A stretch of DNA of 64,000 nucleotides from Xanthomonas cucurbitae (GTDB lineage: Bacteria > Pseudomonadota > Gammaproteobacteria > Xanthomonadales > Xanthomonadaceae). This document shows, in pieces, positions 2,961 through 11,650 of this stretch. A program made the position numbers and the translations under genes. The stretch is taken from assembly GCF_002939885.1 (NCBI RefSeq), contig NZ_MDED01000010.1, positions 1-64,000 of the forward strand. Reading direction: 5' to 3'. The stretch's first letter is position 1, and each line of letters starts with the position of its first letter. The notes below the pieces were generated by a model, which worked only from the letters and a program-made list of their open reading frames with translations, did no database searches and was not told the DNA's origin.

Positions 2961-3527
2961 TCAGAACCAGGGTACGGTCGCTTCCTGGCTCAGGCCATAG
3001 CTGCTGAAACTGCCGTCTTTGGGTTTAGGTAGTAGGGGGCCATGGCAGATGAAGAGCGGGAATGATGCTTGGCCGGTACTACGGCTGCCCAGCGTCACGA
3101 ACGGGAGCCACAACTGTTCGGCTGTCGTGTCCGGGATGCGTTGGGTCGCTGTTTCGGCATCGATCCCGTGACGCCGCATGGCACGACGTCGCAGGCGCGA
3201 TGGGCTGCTTTTGGCCTGAACCCGTGTGACCTGCCGGTAAGAGGGACTGGCCGCAACAGCAGTGATACTCGAGACCAGCAGGTGATCGCGCATGCCGTGC
3301 AGCCAGGGACTTGCCATCACTGTCTGCAAAGCGGCCTGTTGTCCGTGCAGACGCAGGTGGCTACCTAGAGTCGGTTTGCGTGCGTCATGGCCTGGAAAGC
3401 TGACTCCGATGTCCTGGCGTTGCTGTTGTGCCAATACTCGGTGCAGACGTGTGTACAAGCCACTGAGCAGTTGGTGCGGTGCCAACTCCGAGTCTGGACG
3501 AAGGTGAAGGTCCACGTAGTGGTCCAT
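2961..3527 (-). CDS. cas6f: CRISPR endoribonuclease Cas6f/Csy4
   Basis: This protein of 188 residues (Pseudomonas Csy4 has 187) cuts pre-crRNA at the base of each repeat hairpin and stays bound to the crRNA 3' end in the Csy surveillance complex. It starts MDHYVDLHLRPD, as the family does, and the catalytic His29 is present in YTRLHRVL. The arginine-rich RNA-binding helix is visible as RVQAKSSPSRLRRRAMRRH (about residues 100-120), followed by RIPDT, the SRSTGQ segment with the partner serine, and the family C-terminus VPWF. The start was set at the MDHY methionine; the frame is open further upstream, but that extension overlaps csy3 and is not family-like. It sits 4 bp after csy3, and an intrinsic terminator follows. 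Confidence 0.97.
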   Translation of the reverse strand: MDHYVDLHLRPDSELAPHQLLSGLYTRLHRVLAQQQRQDIGVSFPGHDARKPTLGSHLRLHGQQAALQTVMASPWLHGMRDHLLVSSITAVAASPSYRQVTRVQAKSSPSRLRRRAMRRHGIDAETATQRIPDTTAEQLWLPFVTLGSRSTGQASFPLFICHGPLLPKPKDGSFSSYGLSQEATVPWF

Positions 3528-4591: not shown

Positions 4592-5605
4592 TCAGTCGAG
4601 AAAGTAGTTGAAATCAAGCGAGTCATCTTCAATGTGTGCCGCAGCGAAATCGTTGCGGCAGCGATACAACCCCCGATCCGGTTCGCTGCCGGGGTACCAG
4701 AGCAACTGCTGCGGCGTGTCCAGGCGGTGCGGGCTGATCCACTGGCCGAGCGAGTACAGGCTCTCGACGAAGCGGAATGCAGTGGTCGTGTCGCGCGCGT
4801 TGGCAATACTGTCCGGTGCCTGCAGTTCACACAGGGCGCCATAGCCCACCGGAATCGGCACGGTCCAGCCACGCCCTGTGCGGTCATGGCGCCATCCGGG
4901 GGTGTCGTCCGGGGTGTCCTGGCCCTGGTGGTAGCGCCAGTTGACGCGTGCCAGCGACAGCCAGGCATCCAGCCCGGTGGCATCGGGAGCGGTGGCCCGC
5001 AGCTCGGCCAGGCGGGTGTCGAGCAGGTCGGCCCGTTCCACCAGCGCAAAGCCCGGCAGCAGACGCGTGCGTGCCTTGCGGAACTGCGCCGCGCGGTCGT
5101 CTTCGGTGCCAGTCAGATCCAGTGTCCACGGTTGATAGCGATGCCTCCAGGCGTCGGCCGGTGGCCGCAGGCTGCCACCGGCGATGCGCATGCCGGCGAG
5201 CAACCCGGCCACCGTCGCCGTTTCGGCCTGGTGTGCCTGCGGCTGGTCTTTCCAGCGTTGGCTGTTCACCGCCAGCACCAGACTCAGTTCCAGGTGGATA
5301 CGGCCTTCTTCGACGATGGCGGCGGTCTTGCCATCCTCGTCGACCGGGTTGCGGGTCAGGTGAAACGCCTTGACGAAGCTGCTATCGGTGACCTGCTCCT
5401 GATGATCGTGGCAAACCGTGCCAATGGCCTGGAAGGTCAGCTCCAGGCCGGCGGCGTGAACCTTCCGTTGCAGCGCCCACATCACGCCCAGCAACGCAGT
5501 CATGGAGGGAAAGCCATGGGTCAGCGGGCTGGAAACGGCATTGGCGTTGTGGACGCGCAGATGCGGGATCACCAAGAGATGACTGAATGTCGGGCACTGG
5601 TTCAT
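4592..5605 (-). CDS. csy2: Csy2 (Cas5f), Csy complex tail subunit
   Basis: This 337-residue protein is the type I-F Cas5 subunit, which pairs with Csy1 to cap the crRNA 5' handle and help read the PAM. It starts [23 protein letters not shown], matching the family N-terminus, followed by the segment [16 protein letters not shown]. Its ATG overlaps the csy1 TGA by four bases (ATGA, 5602-5605), which shows translational coupling and fixes the start although the frame is open further upstream. The C-terminus is rich in aromatic and acidic residues (LDFNYFLD). Confidence 0.96.
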
Positions 5606-6957
5606 GGCCGGGCTCCGCCAGGCGCACGCCGTTGCAAGGGCACCGGCCAAGCCGCCTCGACGATGGCCTGTTTTGCCCAATGTCGGTACTCGCTGTCGCC
5701 GATACCCGTCAGCCCTGCCTTGCGCAGTTGTGCACTGATCCAGTTGGCAAAGCGGCCTGCCACCTGGTCTGGCCAGTCGCCAAACAGATAGGCCGCGTTG
5801 AACGCTTCGTCGTCCTGCGTCCATTGCCCATGTTGCGGATCGTGGCGGATCGGCAATTCGGTGCGCTCCGGGTCAAGCCACAATTGTTCGTCCAATGGCA
5901 GCATGCAGTCGGCATCACGGGTCCAGCCGGGTGCGAGGCTGGCCTGGGTTTGCGCAGCAAAGACGGTCAACTGTGCACCGAGCTCCTGCGCAATACGGTC
6001 ACGGGTCTGGCGCGTCCTGTCGTTAGCGGGGGGAGCGCCACGCAGGAAGTCTGCAAGCGCCTTCATGATCGCGCGCACCTCCTTACCGTAGCCAAACCGC
6101 TCCATCGCCGACTCGCTCTTCAGCAGACTGCGTGGATGGTCATGCGCCCAGCTCGGCGGCAGCGAGGCCAGCAGGTAGTTCACGCCGCCGCGTTCGCTGT
6201 TGAGCTGGGAAATATTCTGCGGTTTGGTACCGCCGAGCTTGCGGGCGACCAAGTTGCGGTAATCGCGGTAGTCGTCGGCATGCGCTTGCCTGGCGCGGTG
6301 CGCCTGACGGGCCAGCTTATTGCGTTCGCCAAAACGGGCATCCTGGATATCGGCGTGCACCACCTGTGCCAGCGTGCTGGAGAACATTGGCTGCAACAGG
6401 TGGTAGTGCGTGTCGTCGGTCGGCTCTTCGCCGACAAGCCAGTAGACCTGCTTGGCCATCGCATGCGAACTCAGCTGCGGCTCGCTGCTGACAAGCGTGC
6501 CGAACGCCTGCATCCAGCCGGTGGCAACCTTGGTATCGGCATGCAGCGCAGCCCGCAGATCACTGTCGCCGGTCTGCATCCACGCCAACAGACCCTGGCC
6601 ATCGACCTCGACCTTGAGGAACTTGAACACGTCCAGCGCAGCGGCATTGCCCACCACGTCCGGCGTATAGCCGCTGCCCAACAGGTGGCTGCCAACCTCG
6701 GCATGCCGCGGCAGGCTATCAGGTGGCACATGCAGGCTACTGCCACGCGCATCGGGGTGGGTGGCCTTGAGCACATGGGTGACGGCATGGATCTGCCCAA
6801 CCCGACGCGCCGCATCGGCCAACCAGGTGGTGTAGTCGTATTTCGTCGCCGCGCCGGCCTCGTCTTTGCCGTCCTTCAGCTTGGCCAAGCGCCGGGCTTC
6901 GATAAAGTCGGCGATGGCGGAGCGGAAGCGTTGTGAACGCTCCGAGACTTCAGTCAT
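5602..6957 (-). CDS. csy1: Csy1 (Cas8f), large subunit and PAM sensor
   Basis: This 451-residue protein is the type I-F large subunit, which recognises the double-stranded CC PAM and starts DNA unwinding. No catalytic motif is expected; the call rests on family-like stretches such as SERSQRFRSAIADFIEARR at the N-terminus, GGTKPQNISQLNSERGG in the middle and the C-terminal helical part, and on its place directly before csy2. The ATG at 6957 is preceded by GGAAGGACT; a TTG in frame at 6981 is less likely. It is the first csy gene. The 347 bp before it hold a mini-ORF, hairpins and a mini-CRISPR aimed at a site 247 bp upstream, so its expression is likely controlled there. Confidence 0.96.
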   Translation of the reverse strand: MTEVSERSQRFRSAIADFIEARRLAKLKDGKDEAGAATKYDYTTWLADAARRVGQIHAVTHVLKATHPDARGSSLHVPPDSLPRHAEVGSHLLGSGYTPDVVGNAAALDVFKFLKVEVDGQGLLAWMQTGDSDLRAALHADTKVATGWMQAFGTLVSSEPQLSSHAMAKQVYWLVGEEPTDDTHYHLLQPMFSSTLAQVVHADIQDARFGERNKLARQAHRARQAHADDYRDYRNLVARKLGGTKPQNISQLNSERGGVNYLLASLPPSWAHDHPRSLLKSESAMERFGYGKEVRAIMKALADFLRGAPPANDRTRQTRDRIAQELGAQLTVFAAQTQASLAPGWTRDADCMLPLDEQLWLDPERTELPIRHDPQHGQWTQDDEAFNAAYLFGDWPDQVAGRFANWISAQLRKAGLTGIGDSEYRHWAKQAIVEAAWPVPLQRRAPGGARP

Positions 6958-7005
6958 ATGGGAGTCCTTCCGTTGGCCCAAATTGGATCAGCCATGTAGA
7001 CTCGC

Positions 7006-7024
7006 GCCCAGCAACTTGCTGGGC
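7006..7024. repeat. Perfect 19-bp palindrome in the csy1 leader
   Basis: GCCCAGCAA-C-TTGCTGGGC is a perfect palindrome around base 7015. On the minus strand RNA it can fold as a 7-bp stem with a 5-nt loop. It lies about 49 bp before csy1 and 32 bp after the mini-ORF stop. It has no U-tract, so it is not an intrinsic terminator. It could be an operator or a structured part of the csy1 5' leader. Confidence 0.6.
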
Positions 7025-7034
7025 GGGAGATGGT

Positions 7035-7059
7035 CTGGGGGAAACGTAGTTCCCCTCAG
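7035..7059 (-). repeat. Hairpin overlapping the mini-ORF stop codon
   Basis: On the minus strand, CTGAGGGGAA and TTTCCCCCAG pair over ten positions with one A-C mismatch, closing a small loop. The 5' arm covers the last codons and the TGA of the ten-codon ORF at 7056-7088. A ribosome held on the rare TTA-AGA codons just upstream would therefore affect whether this hairpin forms. No U-tract follows. Confidence 0.6.
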
Positions 7060-7088
7060 ACTCTTAAGAGCAGACGAACGCTATTCAT
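7056..7088 (-). other. Ten-codon mini-ORF with strong RBS and rare codons (CreT-like or leader peptide)
   Basis: On the minus strand AAGGAGG (7093-7099), a near-perfect Shine-Dalgarno sequence, stands 4 nt before an ATG. The ORF encodes MNSVRLLLRV and stops with TGA. Codons 8 and 9 are TTA and AGA, the rarest leucine and arginine codons in this GC-rich genome. The ORF lies between the putative guide-repressed promoter (about 7203-7231) and csy1, among strong hairpins. In CreTA modules next to type I cas genes, CreT toxins are tiny RNAs with a strong ribosome-binding site and rare codons that trap a scarce tRNA, silenced by a Cascade guide (CreA). The likeness is striking but is inference. The alternative is a leader peptide that attenuates or buffers csy1 expression. 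No homologue is known to me for this exact sequence. Confidence 0.4.
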
Positions 7089-7141
7089 CCTGCCTCCTTG
7101 GACTTTCAGGGCTGGTGCTAGCCAGCAAGGTGTCGAGACGG

Positions 7142-7170
7142 CCGGATCACCGCTCGCAACGGTGATCCGG
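7142..7170. repeat. 11-bp perfect stem-loop upstream of the mini-ORF
   Basis: CCGGATCACCG and CGGTGATCCGG form a perfect 11-bp stem with a 7-nt loop. No run of T follows on either strand, so it is not a standard terminator. It would be in the 5' leader of a minus-strand transcript starting near 7195, between the putative promoter and the mini-ORF. It may stabilise the transcript or be a protein-binding dyad. Confidence 0.6.
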
Positions 7171-7202
7171 TCTACATAGGCTAACTCGTGATTTTTGAAT
7201 TG

Positions 7203-7231
7203 TCCATAGTTGCCGAAACTTCAACTGTCGA
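7203..7231 (-). promoter_or_regulatory. Candidate promoter toward csy1, overlapping the guide target
   Basis: On the minus strand TCGACA (7226-7231, five of six matches to the -35 consensus) and TATGGA (7203-7208, a weak -10) stand 17 bp apart. The sequence matched by the mini-CRISPR spacer (7206-7225) fills nearly all of the space between them. The -10 is poor, so the exact promoter is uncertain; what is clear is that a Csy complex bound here would block transcription coming toward csy1. Confidence 0.35.
7204..7225 (+). promoter_or_regulatory. PAM (CC) plus protospacer-like target of the mini-CRISPR guide
   Basis: Bases 7204-7205 are CC, the type I-F PAM in the right place (immediately 5' of the protospacer on the non-target strand). 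Bases 7206-7225 match the mini-CRISPR spacer (7248-7267) at 16 of 20 positions. The mismatches are at positions 6, 9, 12 and 18. In type I surveillance complexes every sixth guide base is flipped out and not read, so only the position-9 mismatch should count. The first five seed bases match, and identity ends exactly where the spacer ends. Confidence 0.8.
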
Positions 7232-7295
7232 GAAGACAGCTCAGAAAATAGTGGCAGAGACTTCTACATGCACTGCCGCACAGGCAGCCCGGGCA
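7220..7295 (+). CRISPR. Degenerate two-repeat mini-CRISPR encoding a crRNA-like regulatory guide
   Basis: Two diverged copies of the array repeat flank a 20-nt spacer on the plus strand, opposite to the cas genes. Repeat 1 (7220-7247) matches 21 of 28 bases and repeat 2 (7268-7295) matches 20 of 28. Repeat 1 changes the Csy4 stem from CTGCC/GGCAG to CTGTC/GACAG, a compensatory pair change that keeps the 5-bp stem with a 5-nt loop, and it keeps the 8-nt handle CTCAGAAA exactly. Repeat 2 keeps the stem CTGCC/GGCAG exactly but has lost its own 3' handle, which is not needed after the last spacer. Csy4 processing would give a 48-nt RNA (7240-7287): handle, 20-nt spacer, 3' hairpin. Known relatives in concept are the CreA and CreR guides of other type I systems, which repress promoters without cleavage. 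A possible origin is tandem duplication, because 7206-7247 and 7248-7295 look like two adjacent diverged units. Confidence 0.85.
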
Positions 7296-7304
7296 GGGAT
7301 GCCC

Positions 7305-10300
7305 TTATCGATTGCCGGCAAAGCCCAGCCATGGGTGATAGCGCCAGCCTTGTTGGCTGGCTGGCACCTCCACCGTTGCAAACTTCCGGGCGCATGCCTC
7401 CATCGGTAACTCAAGGCTCTCGGCCTGCTCGGTCAGAAGGTCTAGCAACCTGGCGTCCCCCCAATGACCGATCCCCGGGCTGGAGGCCAACGCGACGTCG
7501 TGGCGCTGGCTCTGTTCGATGCAGACATACAGGTCGCCGGCATACCGGTCGGTAGATGTCTCGACGCGGTGCAGCCGTAGCGTGTCGTCGTCATCCGGCA
7601 GGAACACCAGCGCGGTGTGGGGCTGGCTGTCGTTGCGGAAGGGCTGCTGTTGCGGCAGCACACCGGTCAAGGCCGCATCGGGGTATCTCCAGGCGGCAAA
7701 GGCATGATCGGGTTCCAATGCCGTGCCGGCTGCGCTCATCGGTAGCATGCAACGGGCGATGCGCGCCTGCTCCAGGTCCACCAGCCGCTCGCGTGGTGTC
7801 CATTGTGCGTAGTCGTCAGGGCGCGGTCGGATGCGCGGTATGGCACTGAGTATGCGGTAGTCTTCCTCACGCAGCAGTTCGCGCAGCCACGGCGTCTTCA
7901 ACTGGAACTCCTTGCCGCTGCCCTCCTTTTCGAACCCGGGCCTGACGTAGGTGCAGCGGTCCTGCCCGCCGTGACGGAACTGGCGCAGGTTGGTATCGAA
8001 GATCAACACGTTTGGCGTATTGCTGACCTTGCCGCGATGGCGTTGCACGCGCCCGGCCAGCTGGATCAGCGAGCGCATGGAAGACGGTTCGGCCACCGCC
8101 CAGTCGGCATCCCAATCGCGGCCGACCTCGCACACCGGCGAGGCCAGCACCACGAAGATGTGCTGGCGTGCAGGGTGTGCGTCGATCAACGCACGAATGG
8201 TCGGCAGGTGGTAGACGCCACTGCCATCGCCGCGCCGGTTGAAGGCCTGGTCCAGCTGGTACTCGATGGCTGAGCGTTGTATCAGCGGAAAGCGCGCGTG
8301 GTAGACGCATAGGTGGATCTGGGTATCCTCCGGCGCACCGCCGGCATGCAATGCTCGCGCAACGTCGAATAGCGGCTCGATGTTGGCCATGCGCACCAGC
8401 CCGAAGCTGACACGCTTGCCGCTGACCGGGTCCACTTCGGCGTGCGCGTGATGCAGGCGCAGGCAGGCGTCGCGGACATGCGGCGCAAACTGCTCTGATC
8501 GCTGTGCGTCGGGTAGATTGCGTGGCAGCTCCAATGGCAACAGTTCGCCGCGCCGCAAGGCAGGTGACTTGGCGAGCGTGGCGATACGTTTATCGACGAA
8601 GCGCATATGCAGGTCGAGAAAGCCGCTACTGCCCGCACATGTGGCGGTCTGCACACCGAACTCGTCGCTCCACAGGCAGGCAACTTCGACGGCGGCGTCT
8701 GGCTGGCCGCCATTCTGCCCACGGTTGCGTCGGTACTGCTGGCGCCCTTCACGATAGGCCAGGTACATGCCGGTCACCAACGCTGGCGGCAGCGTGGCCG
8801 ACGACAGCAGGACGCGCGTGCCCAGCATGCCTGCCGAGTGCATCAATCGGGTCAAGGCGGGCAGGTCGTCGAGCTGGTAGTCATCCAGTTCGTCCAGGAT
8901 CAGGTCTGCACTCAGCAGGCGCAGCATCGGTGCGATCTGGCGCCCGGCACGAAGTGATTCGGTGGCCGGCACCATGTGATCCACGGTACACACCAGCATC
9001 GGTGCCGACAGTAGCTTGCCAATGCCAGGATCATGCAAGGCACGCGAGAGCAGCGGATGATCGGTTGTGATGCCTTCGTAGAATACGTGGCTGTCTTCTT
9101 CAAGCAGGTCCTGTACGGAAGCCGAGCCATGTGTATCGGCCTTGTGCTCGTAGAATTCGAACAACGCACGGCTGGCAGAGCCGCCGACATGGATGGCCAG
9201 TTCGTCCTCGTCCAGGTGCAGATCGGTACGGAAGCTGCGTCCGGTTTGCAGGGTCAGCGTGCGCAGTCCCAATGCATACGTGGCGCGTAGGCCCTGCTGC
9301 GGATCGGCCAATGCATACACGATGCGTGCATTGGCCAGCGTCTTGCCGCAGCCGGTGGAGGCCATGTTGACGATGAAGGCGCCATGCTCATGCGCTGCCT
9401 CGCGCATCGCGGTGGCCGCATCGAACGCTTTGTCCTGCCAGCTGAAGCGCGCATCGGCACTGCGTTTGCGCAGGCCGCGGTGATTTGCCAGTCGCGGTAG
9501 ATGCCGCTCGAAGCCGGGAAGCGCATGGGCGATCAGTCCGGCATCGCGTGCGACGCCGAGCAAGTGTTCATCCAGTGGCTGCTTGAGACCCTCGCGGTCG
9601 GTGTTGGCGTAGAGCTGCGTCCTGCCATCCCCTTGCACGCGGCCTGGAGAATGCCGAGGCAGCGCAGAGTAGTAGTGGTCGGCCAACATCAGCGACAGAC
9701 GCGCAAGATGCATGACGTAGGGATTGTCCAGCCAGTTGTCATCACGGCGCAGGCGCAGCGCGAGCAGGCGCTTTGCCAGCCGTGCGGCCTGGGCGCGCCA
9801 TTTGGTCTCCATGACCGGCAATGCTCCGGCAGGCGTCCAGTACTCGAGTATCCGATCAGGTTCTGCCGGCTGCCGGATTTCGTTCCAGTCGTGCGCCACC
9901 CACTGCAAAGGTGTCTCCAGCCAAGCCTGGTTGAAACTCTTGGAACGCCTACCGAGCCGGGCCTGTTGACCATCGTCCTGCTGCACGGGAACGACCGGAA
10001 GCCGGTGGTGGGTGAGTATCAGCCAGGCGACGGCTGCGGCCAGTGGGGCCATGCCGACGAAGGGGTGGCGTGAGGCCGCATTGATGCCATCGCGCTGGTA
10101 GCGCTGGGTTCCTGTCCAGTCTGCTTCGGTGAAAGCGTCGGTGTCGGCCAGGCGCTGCAACCAGGTGGCATCGTCGTCGTTGCCGACGAAGGCCTGGAAT
10201 AGCCGCAGCGACACCCATTCATGCCGATAGAGATTGCGCTCGCGCAAGTCGCCGCGCAGGCGTGCCTGGAAGGCGACACTGGCTTTACCCAGGTCGTGCA

Positions 10301-10664
10301 ACAACCCGGCCAGCTGCGCGAGCAGACGGATATCTTCGGCGCGGTGCCAGTCATTCTCGTCTTCGCGGCGCAGGATGTTGCGCGTAGTGGTATTGGTGGG
10401 TACCGCGCCTTCTGCATTGAAGCGCCGCGCATCGCCCACGATCCAGAGCAACTCGGAATGGTCGCGGCCGCGAATCCAGTGGCAGGCGATGGCGCTGTTC
10501 TTACGCGCTGTCTTGCGCAGCAGTTTGCGTAATGTGACCAGCCCGGCCTCGGTGATTGGGGTCTGCCAGGTGCGGTCTCCGCGTCGTTCGGCGAACTGAT
10601 CGAGGAGACGGCGCGTTTCGTTGAGTGCGCGCTTGTCGCACTGTGAGATCAGCAAGATGTTCAC
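7305..10664 (-). CDS. cas3f: Cas2-3 fusion: helicase-nuclease with N-terminal Cas2 domain
   Basis: This 1119-residue type I-F protein joins Cas2 (about residues 1-95, for spacer acquisition with Cas1) to the HD nuclease and superfamily 2 helicase that degrade targeted DNA. The HD pair is at 123-124 (LLHDLGK), Walker A is MASTGCGKT (434-442), the DEAD-like box is ILDELDD (589-595), motif III is SSAT (621-624) and motif VI reads QLAGRVQRHRG. The start is a GTG whose first bases overlap the cas1 TGA (GTGA, 10661-10664), so the two are translationally coupled. The upstream extension of the frame was rejected because the family begins (M/V)NILLISQCDKRAL. Nine bases separate its stop from the second degenerate repeat of the mini-CRISPR. 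Confidence 0.97.
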   Translation of the reverse strand: MNILLISQCDKRALNETRRLLDQFAERRGDRTWQTPITEAGLVTLRKLLRKTARKNSAIACHWIRGRDHSELLWIVGDARRFNAEGAVPTNTTTRNILRREDENDWHRAEDIRLLAQLAGLLHDLGKASVAFQARLRGDLRERNLYRHEWVSLRLFQAFVGNDDDATWLQRLADTDAFTEADWTGTQRYQRDGINAASRHPFVGMAPLAAAVAWLILTHHRLPVVPVQQDDGQQARLGRRSKSFNQAWLETPLQWVAHDWNEIRQPAEPDRILEYWTPAGALPVMETKWRAQAARLAKRLLALRLRRDDNWLDNPYVMHLARLSLMLADHYYSALPRHSPGRVQGDGRTQLYANTDREGLKQPLDEHLLGVARDAGLIAHALPGFERHLPRLANHRGLRKRSADARFSWQDKAFDAATAMREAAHEHGAFIVNMASTGCGKTLANARIVYALADPQQGLRATYALGLRTLTLQTGRSFRTDLHLDEDELAIHVGGSASRALFEFYEHKADTHGSASVQDLLEEDSHVFYEGITTDHPLLSRALHDPGIGKLLSAPMLVCTVDHMVPATESLRAGRQIAPMLRLLSADLILDELDDYQLDDLPALTRLMHSAGMLGTRVLLSSATLPPALVTGMYLAYREGRQQYRRNRGQNGGQPDAAVEVACLWSDEFGVQTATCAGSSGFLDLHMRFVDKRIATLAKSPALRRGELLPLELPRNLPDAQRSEQFAPHVRDACLRLHHAHAEVDPVSGKRVSFGLVRMANIEPLFDVARALHAGGAPEDTQIHLCVYHARFPLIQRSAIEYQLDQAFNRRGDGSGVYHLPTIRALIDAHPARQHIFVVLASPVCEVGRDWDADWAVAEPSSMRSLIQLAGRVQRHRGKVSNTPNVLIFDTNLRQFRHGGQDRCTYVRPGFEKEGSGKEFQLKTPWLRELLREEDYRILSAIPRIRPRPDDYAQWTPRERLVDLEQARIARCMLPMSAAGTALEPDHAFAAWRYPDAALTGVLPQQQPFRNDSQPHTALVFLPDDDDTLRLHRVETSTDRYAGDLYVCIEQSQRHDVALASSPGIGHWGDARLLDLLTEQAESLELPMEACARKFATVEVPASQQGWRYHPWLGFAGNR

Positions 10665-11650
10665 TGCGGAAGGCCCGGCTGCCTTGCGGCCGCGGTTTGC
10701 AGCGCAACGAACTTGAGCGTGTCCAGCATGAAATCCAGCGCATCGCTGCGGGCGAGCTGCGCAATGCATTCGCGCCGAAACGCCTGCTCGTCGTCGCCGC
10801 GCATCGCCGAGAGAAAGGCTTGCGGCAAGATGGTGGCATCCTTGACCAGATCGGCAATATCGAACACCAACCCACCTCTGCGCGTCTTGCCGTGCAACAC
10901 GGCCAAACCATGTGGCAGACCCAATACCCAGCTGGCGGTAGCACCCAGCCCGTAGGCCAGATAGTTGCCATGATCGAGAAAGCGATTGGCTGGATCGCCG
11001 CCACTACCGCGCTTGGCGCGGGTGAAATCGCCGTAGCCCACGGTGTCGACCGCCAGTTTGAACAAGGCCTTGGTGAGCCTGGCCTCTTCGGTCAGCAGGG
11101 ACGCATTGTCCTGTGCGTGTTCGATGTTGTGGCGTGTTCTGGTCAGCAGTGCCTCCAGCCTTGCAGCGTCGGGCGCGAAGCCGGCTTCCTTGAGTGCGCG
11201 TTGCTGCCATTGCTCGCCGATTCGCGTTGCGCGTGCCTGCTGGAACGCCTTGGCTGCGTTCAGACGCAGGCTGTCATCGAACCAGAACGACACCCAGGCC
11301 TGCAGATACTCGGTGGGGCGATACTCGCTCTGCGGGCAGAACCAGGCCACTTCCACATCCATCTCGTTGACCGTGAACAACGGTGTCCCACCGCCGCCAC
11401 AAAACCCGACCAGCACACCGGCCTTGGCCAGCTCGCGCATCGCCGCCTGGGTGACGGAGGTTCCGGTGCCCAGCAGCACCGTTGTAGTGTTGGCGATGGG
11501 AATGTTCCAGTACAACGAGCGCTTGCCTGCATCGGTCACATATTCAACCCGTCCGCCATTGACCAGCACCCGGCAATGTTGCAGGTAGTAGATGTTTGCG
11601 CGCTTGGAATGCAGGATGGTCTTGAGGTCTGAAGCCGAGAGTTCGTCCAT
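10661..11650 (-). CDS. cas1: CRISPR integrase Cas1, type I-F
   Basis: This 329-residue protein integrates new spacers at the leader end of the array, in a complex with the Cas2 part of Cas2-3. The N-terminus (ILHSKRANIYYLQHCRVLV) is typical of type I-F Cas1. The metal-binding residues are in place: Glu189 in LLTEEARLTK, His253 in LPHGLAVLHGKTRRGG, and Asp264 and Asp267 in LVFDIADLVKD. It is the first gene of the cas1-cas2-3 pair; its ATG at 11650 is followed by the expected MDELSASDLKTILHSKRAN. Confidence 0.97.
   Translation of the reverse strand: MDELSASDLKTILHSKRANIYYLQHCRVLVNGGRVEYVTDAGKRSLYWNIPIANTTTVLLGTGTSVTQAAMRELAKAGVLVGFCGGGGTPLFTVNEMDVEVAWFCPQSEYRPTEYLQAWVSFWFDDSLRLNAAKAFQQARATRIGEQWQQRALKEAGFAPDAARLEALLTRTRHNIEHAQDNASLLTEEARLTKALFKLAVDTVGYGDFTRAKRGSGGDPANRFLDHGNYLAYGLGATASWVLGLPHGLAVLHGKTRRGGLVFDIADLVKDATILPQAFLSAMRGDDEQAFRRECIAQLARSDALDFMLDTLKFVALQTAAARQPGLPQ

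Follow-up and report, generated by a model that had tools for sequence, protein, structure and literature searches.

The gap between cas2-3 and csy1 in the type I-F CRISPR-Cas locus of Xanthomonas cucurbitae is predicted to hold a CreTA module of type I-F: carrying a predicted 48-nt guide, the Csy complex would occupy a nearby target and silence a small toxic RNA. We regard this reading as highly probable. The degenerate repeats, handle, spacer, PAM, target, Shine-Dalgarno sequence, mini-ORF, rare codons and full I-F cas set are all present in the DNA, the arrangement recurs in other genera, and the module of the window (the whole 64,000-nt stretch of contig NZ_MDED01000010.1 analysed here) is likely to be functional. 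The original prediction that a degenerate mini-CRISPR supplies a guide, and that a CC-flanked site close by matches it in part, is supported; its main reading, a guide that only regulates the cas genes (CreR), gave way, since a Shine-Dalgarno mini-ORF with the architecture of a type I-F CreT, unnoticed earlier, lies between the target and csy1.

The window opens with a type I-F array, and csy4, csy3, csy2, csy1, cas2-3 and cas1 follow on the minus strand, all six being strong PADLOC matches. The gap between cas2-3 and csy1 is enlarged, to 323 nt, and contains the mini-CRISPR (creA) together with the mini-ORF (creT). The features of this region are as follows.

5602 to 6957, minus strand: csy1 (cas8f), a PADLOC match that opens the Csy complex operon, with its ATG at 6957.
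7005 to 7025, minus strand: second 3' hairpin (predicted fold), with GTCTAC a few bases beyond; candidate CreT 3' end or csy1 leader element.
7033 to 7061, minus strand: feature overlapping the creT 3' end (predicted fold).
7056 to 7088, minus strand: CreT mini-ORF, 33 bp (ATG AAT AGC GTT CGT CTG CTC TTA AGA GTC TGA), its start codon lying in the stem of a predicted hairpin (5 bp, loop of 7 nt).
7093 to 7099, minus strand: Shine-Dalgarno sequence AAGGAGG of creT, read directly from the sequence.
7142 to 7170, minus strand: 13-bp hairpin (predicted fold) of the predicted CreT 5' leader.
7178 to 7206, minus strand: predicted promoter toward creT and csy1, with -35 TGGACA at 7206-7201 (overlapping the PAM), 17 nt of spacing and -10 TAGCCT at 7183-7178; 8 of 12 consensus bases.
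7204 to 7225, plus strand: CC PAM (7204-7205) and target (7206-7225), matched by the spacer at 16 of 20 positions.
7220 to 7247, plus strand: psiR1, first degenerate repeat of creA, 21/28 against the array repeat, with stem CTGTC/GACAG and an intact 8-nt handle, CTCAGAAA.
7248 to 7267, plus strand: psiS, the 20-nt spacer of creA, matching the target at 16 of 20 positions.
7268 to 7295, plus strand: psiR2, second degenerate repeat of creA, 20/28, with the Csy4 hairpin kept in its first 20 nt.
7240 to 7287, plus strand: predicted mature CreA guide, 48 nt, comprising the 8-nt handle, 20-nt spacer and 20-nt 3' handle, as predicted from Csy4 cleavage after the stem.
7305 to 10769, minus strand: cas2-3, a PADLOC match, with its stop at 7305.

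The earlier description of two degenerate repeats around a 20-nt spacer, on the strand opposite to the cas genes, was reproduced in both coordinates and scores, and the 48-nt guide is predicted here at the same position as before. Compared with the array repeat, psiR1 has one stem pair in which both bases differ, and the last 8 nt of psiR2 are degenerate, as they are in other loci. From position 2901 to the end of the window, every threshold between 16 and 20 of 28 yields the creA pair and no other. Of 200 first-order Markov sequences, ten held a pair at 17, and pairs at 18 or above were absent. At a permissive threshold Rfam gave two matches in all, CRISPR-DR4 on psiR2 (7273-7288, 20.1 bits, below the gathering threshold of 35) and an antizyme element, likewise below gathering and judged to be due to chance. 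Across the genome (G000) the array repeat is found with up to three mismatches, 144 repeats in all, and among the matches listed three runs begin near contig ends (C10, C27 and C78).

The spacer departs from its target at positions 6, 9, 12 and 18, and the target overlaps psiR1 by 6 nt. This match behind a CC PAM, as first proposed, proved to be far above chance: when the 701-nt surroundings were replaced by Markov sequences, 2,000 in all, none held a CC-flanked match of 16/20, the maximum being 15, reached once. Moreover, the pattern consisting of CC and positions 1-17, with 6, 9 and 12 free, has a single exact occurrence in the 4.4-Mb genome. A second CC-flanked partial match to the guide, at 2995-3013 in the csy4 region, deviates from the pattern at two positions, including seed position 5, and is probably a chance occurrence.

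The mini-ORF shares the orientation of csy1 and lies 117 nt past the target, with about 100 nt left before csy1 begins; its Shine-Dalgarno sequence is followed by CAGG and then the ATG. All five positions of the start-codon stem pair; the isolated 25-mer folds with extra pairs on both sides, leaving a 3-nt loop, and a longer fold differs again. With the open reading frames of the window as the reference for codon usage (15,066 codons, 30 ORFs), TTA is the rarest codon, at 0.73 per 1,000, and AGA the third rarest, at 1.92, and the two are the rarest codons of the window's cas genes. The window creT thus combines a Shine-Dalgarno sequence, a start codon, the rare codons TTA AGA and a stable stem-loop, the feature set of a tRNA-sequestering CreT, and its TTA AGA codons may matter. 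Strong predicted leader hairpins such as that at 7142-7170 are common to many other creT loci. A genome-wide REP family was considered as the origin of the two GTAG-hairpins beside creT and rejected, because TGTAGACTCGCGCCCAGC has one exact occurrence and its four further sites at three mismatches, against two in a reversed control, leave such a family unsupported. In the window (7005-7025) and in loci L022, L024, L030, L032-L034, L036-L038, L042, L046, L047 and L053, inspection by eye shows a strong hairpin between creT and csy1, with (G)ATTCTA-like bases after it, as a candidate CreT 3' end; in L033 it stands after a decayed creT.

We propose that Csy4 would cut the mini-CRISPR unit to give the CreA guide, and that the Csy-CreA complex would bind the target without cutting it, blocking a promoter predicted to have its -35 box overlapping the PAM. 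Should the Csy complex be lost or inhibited, CreT would be made and could poison translation by two routes. The first, resembling Acinetobacter CreT, would rely on the hairpin that encloses the start codon, and the second, resembling the tRNA-sequestering archaeal CreT, on the very rare codon pair TTA AGA. The unit would therefore silence the poison only while the CRISPR machinery works, making the cell dependent on that machinery.

The recurrence of the unit was examined around Csy1, which was found in 30 of 395 genomes of the family and 32 of 369 of the class, the loci of class genomes G577 and G721 being left out. With L041 and L044 dropped (no cas2-3/csy1 pair) and L049 left out as a duplicate of the window, 60 entries were scored. 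In 36 of them the stretch scanned before csy1 measured 150 nt or more, and in the other 24 it was shorter; L012-L014 share coordinates with others, so that the short entries number 21 distinct ones. Five of the 36 (L046, L047, L052, L057 and L071) showed no cas2-3 match, and about 1.4 kb upstream was scanned, and in some class loci the gap is overstated, the csy1 match beginning late or the cas2-3 match ending early. An antisense mini-CRISPR is present in 22 of the 36 long-stretch loci, and an antisense unit with a CC target at 80% or better in 21, as opposed to 0 of 3,600 shuffles. None of the 24 short-gap entries carries an antisense unit, and a sense-strand unit was found in none of the 60. 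For the spacers alone, a CC target arises in 7 of 4,200 shuffled gaps. That the window unit is a product of chance, or an ordinary two-repeat array with an anti-phage spacer, has next to no probability: the Markov rates are too low, and guide and target recur at the same place in other genera with a shared target geometry, which largely refutes it.

The Csy complex reads five bases in six. As the targets were chosen on positions 1-5, 7-11 and 13-17 only, positions 6, 12 and 18 are unbiased, and these matched in 4/21, 3/21 and 2/16 loci, about chance level, whereas each of positions 1-5 matched in 21/21. This is the pattern expected of a Csy complex bound through such guides, and it bears out the earlier suggestion that positions 6, 12 and 18 go unread. 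Among the first repeats, the stem and the handle CTNAGAAA are kept and the first four bases are highly variable, and among the second repeats the first 20 bases are best kept and the last eight variable, as Csy4 processing would demand. In the psiR1 stem, 15 cells are changed on both sides in 23 rows, these rows having been pre-selected for pairing. Two further loci with a unit recognised by eye (L024 and L042) and one with a weaker target (L034, 11/15) bring the target-bearing loci from 21 to 24. In three of the loci (L024, L036 and L038) the guide is preceded by a tandem pair of CC-flanked targets, spaced about 20-24 nt from each other.

Within Xanthomonas the module is patchy, occurring in one of six Csy1-bearing genomes; the gaps of the other five are 66-79 nt long and hold no unit. 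The expectation that this gap would be conserved in other type I-F Xanthomonas thus failed in its literal form. In other genera PAM, target and spacer are conserved jointly. A search for DNA similarity to other Xanthomonas gaps matched the cas2-3 end alone, in 2 of 34 other genomes, and a further family search and genus searches gave no additional loci. Among plasmids, 16 Csy1 records were found and six retrieved, of which five were scanned at looser thresholds, L080 having a short gap and standing outside the scan; a unit with a CC target is present in L075, L076, L077 and L079, and none was found in L078 at these thresholds. The annotation of L078 (Vitreoscilla filiformis plasmid pVF1) has a toxin gene of the VapC family on the cas strand, with cas3f to one side and csy1 to the other. 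A later sample of ten new loci from two other orders, five of them with at least 150 nt, contained no antisense unit (0/10), which counts against the CreTA reading, and two sense units (L089 and L090).

A mini-ORF of 6-14 codons with a Shine-Dalgarno match of at least 5, between target and csy1, was found in 13 of the 24 target-bearing loci, compared with 413 of 4,800 shuffles, and a mini-ORF with at least four of the five stem pairs in 12 of 24, compared with 38 of 4,800. L034, at 22 codons, and L046, which lacks an early stop, were added by eye and raise the count to 15 of 24, and L039 and L033 appear by eye to carry decayed creT copies. The remaining nine loci have no recognisable mini-ORF, which counts against the CreTA reading and means that the guide can persist in the absence of the mini-ORF. 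In L056 an ORF of about 60 codons occupies creT's place between target and csy1, a possible protein cargo.

Counting from the start codon as 1, bases -1 to 4 of the mini-ORFs pair with bases 12 to 16. In an alignment of 12 sequences, including that of Acinetobacter LoGeW2-3 and with L053 and L054 among the rows found using the pairing criterion, 93.3% of the cells are paired and 13 are changed on both sides (0/500 shuffles); structures slid along the same alignment reach at most 58%. Likewise, nine rows listed without a pairing criterion, with overlapping candidates picked by eye, are 93.3% paired, with ten cells changed on both sides (0/500 shuffles). Across the 12 rows ATG accompanies U15 and GTG accompanies C15. 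Of the creT copies found later, and thus outside the alignments, those of L047 and L051 each miss one of the five stem pairs, and that of L046 sets GTG opposite U15, a wobble. The codons TTA, AGA or ATA occur in 14 of the 15 mini-ORFs, all except L054, against a background of 18 in 5,559 codons (the longest frames, that is csy1, of 12 of these loci), and tandem rare pairs (TTA AGA, AGA AGA or TTA TTA) occur in 9 of 15.

A strict scan of 6900-7400 returned no promoter and no terminator. By eye the window offers several weak promoter options, the reported pair being the one scored at 8/12, and as a score of at least 8 is reached at 45 of 1,080 null sites it is only suggestive; this best predicted promoter begins at the PAM. 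On the cas strand, a promoter-like pair of at least 9/12 bases stands directly after the PAM (GG) in 12 of the 24 loci, compared with 2 of 1,080 other GG sites in those gaps, and an exact TTGACA in 8 of 24, compared with 1 of 1,080, counts that are not all independent because L036-L038 are close relatives. With a promoter-like pair adjoining the PAM, the complex is predicted to block the polymerase at the -35 box. The two Acinetobacter loci scanned have no good promoter after the PAM, with 7/12 each.

Type I-F CreTA is known from three Acinetobacter (WCHA45, LoGeW2-3 and ANC3789), where, according to the sections of PMC10097628 consulted, the cas3-csy1 gap of about 400 bp holds a pair of degenerate repeats, a spacer whose partial target is flanked by CC and, downstream of that target, a divergent Shine-Dalgarno mini-ORF of 33 bp. 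The WCHA45 guide, studied with one repeat replaced for work in another strain, was sequenced as 8+20+20 nt and represses creT together with Csy (PMC10097628). The window shares with these modules the place in the gap, two degenerate hairpin repeats, the CC PAM and the 48-nt guide layout, as well as the divergent 33-bp Shine-Dalgarno mini-ORF with its start codon in a 5-bp stem and 7-nt loop and AGC as third codon; the 20-nt spacer is shared with WCHA45. The mini-ORF of the LoGeW2-3 locus (ATG TTT AGC ACA CAT TTA GTT AGA AGG GTC TAG, 33 bp) likewise has AGC as its third codon. The window differs from them in the 6-nt overlap of its target with psiR1 and in its tandem TTA AGA, both very rare in its own genome. 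Furthermore, its target overlaps the weak predicted -35 box, whereas transcription of WCHA45 creT starts upstream of the target (PMC10097628). Judged from these predicted features, what is new with respect to known CreTA is the make-up of the putative toxin and also, if the predicted promoter is right, the geometry of repression.

The WCHA45 CreT kills cells as an RNA with its start codon in a 5-bp stem, the peptide being irrelevant, and among the three Acinetobacter modules only those of WCHA45 and LoGeW2-3 are toxic (PMC10097628, sections consulted). Synonymous changes at codons 2, 3 and 5 abolished toxicity in WCHA45, so that rare codons have no demonstrated role there in that part of the account. 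In type I-F CreTA the loop bases 5-9 are described as complementary to 23S rRNA; the window loop is AUAGCGU, and bases 5-9 of LoGeW2-3 are UUAGC. At loop base 5 the window has A and WCHA45 has U, for which, of the changes tried, only C kept toxicity (PMC10097628), and this counts against the CreTA reading. The same departure from the toxic Acinetobacter sequence, along with a promoter match of merely 8/12 and the absence of the module from five other Csy1-bearing Xanthomonas, would fit a decayed, non-functional CreTA remnant. We hold this to be extremely unlikely, given that the handle, both repeat stems, the PAM, match positions 1-5, the Shine-Dalgarno sequence and all five start-stem pairs are intact and that both bases of one psiR1 stem pair differ from the array repeat. 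A mini-ORF in the orientation of csy1, about 100 nt upstream of it and with hairpins on both sides, could be a leader peptide that tunes csy1 translation or attenuation, the guide repressing the common transcript; this is very improbable, since the matching Acinetobacter RNA kills cells irrespective of its peptide and short-gap relatives have csy1 without a mini-ORF.

The second proposed route of CreT action has its parallel in haloarchaea. Archaeal CreT sequesters rare tRNAs through tandem AGA or AUA codons, and in H. hispanica the Shine-Dalgarno sequence, start codon and stem-loop of CreT are critical (PMC8501985, in the part covered). The modules of H. hispanica and H. hubeiense share with the window a strong Shine-Dalgarno sequence, start codon, rare codons, stem-loop and degenerate creA repeats (PMC8501985), and differ in belonging to type I-B, with a TTC PAM (PMC9458426) and doubled AGA or AUA codons. 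The start-codon hairpin present in the window was not met in the part of PMC8501985 covered. The H. hispanica creTA gap also holds a strong promoter for the downstream cas genes (PMC9458426, in part), a precedent for coupling between creT and csy1. In the window creT and csy1 are co-oriented with no terminator recognised between them, so the guide may also restrain csy1-csy4, and guide repression toward csy1 is plausible.

Some loci have a guide and no mini-ORF. In L060 the target adjoins a promoter, TTGATA-17-TAATAT, and the csy1 start follows within about 77 nt; a mini-ORF is absent. Psychrobacter plasmid pA11BP5 (NZ_MN657021.1, L077) has an antisense unit with a 15/15 target and a 9/12 promoter after the PAM, csy1 lies 79 nt on, and the only Shine-Dalgarno start found there is that of csy1 itself. 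The sense units of L089 and L090 each have a 20-nt spacer with a CC target before csy1, matched at 17/20 with mismatches exactly at 6, 12 and 18 in L089 and at 16/20 in L090; CC matches of at least 15/20 arose in 2/300 and 0/300 shuffles. Terminator-like hairpins follow both units, and a scan for a Shine-Dalgarno mini-ORF between target and csy1 found none in either. In L090 an 11/12 promoter is followed by the target, 47 nt before csy1, and the promoter of L089 is weaker (8/12). These four loci look like CreR-like guides in type I-F. CreR has been named for types I-B, I-E and V-A (PMC13131331) and ascribed to 'Type I and Type V-A' (PMC12737573), both in the parts consulted. No paper on a type I-F CreR or on CreTA in Xanthomonas was found by a literature search beyond whose reach lay most subscription literature, including the original CreR report.

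As in CreR, the window has a guide from a degenerate mini-CRISPR that partially matches a site at a predicted promoter toward cas genes, and it could be no more than that, the guide repressing the csy1-csy4 promoter and sensing free Csy complex, with a mini-ORF that is no toxin. The target adjoins a promoter-like pair facing csy1 in half of the target-bearing loci, and the four loci just described have a guide target before csy1 with no Shine-Dalgarno mini-ORF in the scan, both in favour of that explanation. We nevertheless consider it unlikely, as the window mini-ORF has a conserved, covarying start-codon hairpin and enriched rare codons, which would be needless in a plain leader. Moreover, CreR is generally uncoupled from a toxin gene (PMC12737573, in part), whereas the window has a toxin-like mini-ORF between target and csy1. 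CreA-guided repression that guards an effector is shared with CrePA (PMC12737573), whose toxin is a protein; no protein toxin gene lies between target and csy1 in the window gap.

Other loci do carry protein genes downstream of the guide. Type II antitoxin genes were seen there, before csy1 on the creA strand, in L021 (FitA-like), L035 (Phd), L047 (CcdA) and L053 (PaaA2-like), and PIN-domain proteins in L021, L025, L035 and L039, the last having the apparent decayed creT beside its PIN-domain cargo.

Returning to the CreTA module, we tentatively suggest, as a possibility with somewhat less than an even chance, that one guide serves two circuits. The toxin RNA would lie in the leader of a guide-repressed csy operon, so that loss of Csy would arm a double-mechanism toxin (start-codon hairpin and rare-codon trap) and also free csy1-csy4 so that the complex is rebuilt. 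In type I-F as a whole, the guide might be the constant core before csy1, with exchangeable cargo, namely mini-ORF toxins, type II toxin-antitoxin genes or nothing.

The module described here extends type I-F CreTA, as predicted from sequence, beyond Acinetobacter to the Xanthomonadaceae and other gammaproteobacterial families, and natural covariation backs a start-codon hairpin that mutagenesis had earlier revealed in a single Acinetobacter module. Also suggested are an RNA toxin uniting two mechanisms that are, to our knowledge, otherwise known separately, a geometry of repression, with Csy set against the -35 box, that departs from the one measured for Acinetobacter, and the existence of CreR-like guides in type I-F systems. 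If this is true, a simple rule would suffice to find the module, and a good share of type I-F systems with an enlarged gap would be guarded against loss and against anti-CRISPR proteins.
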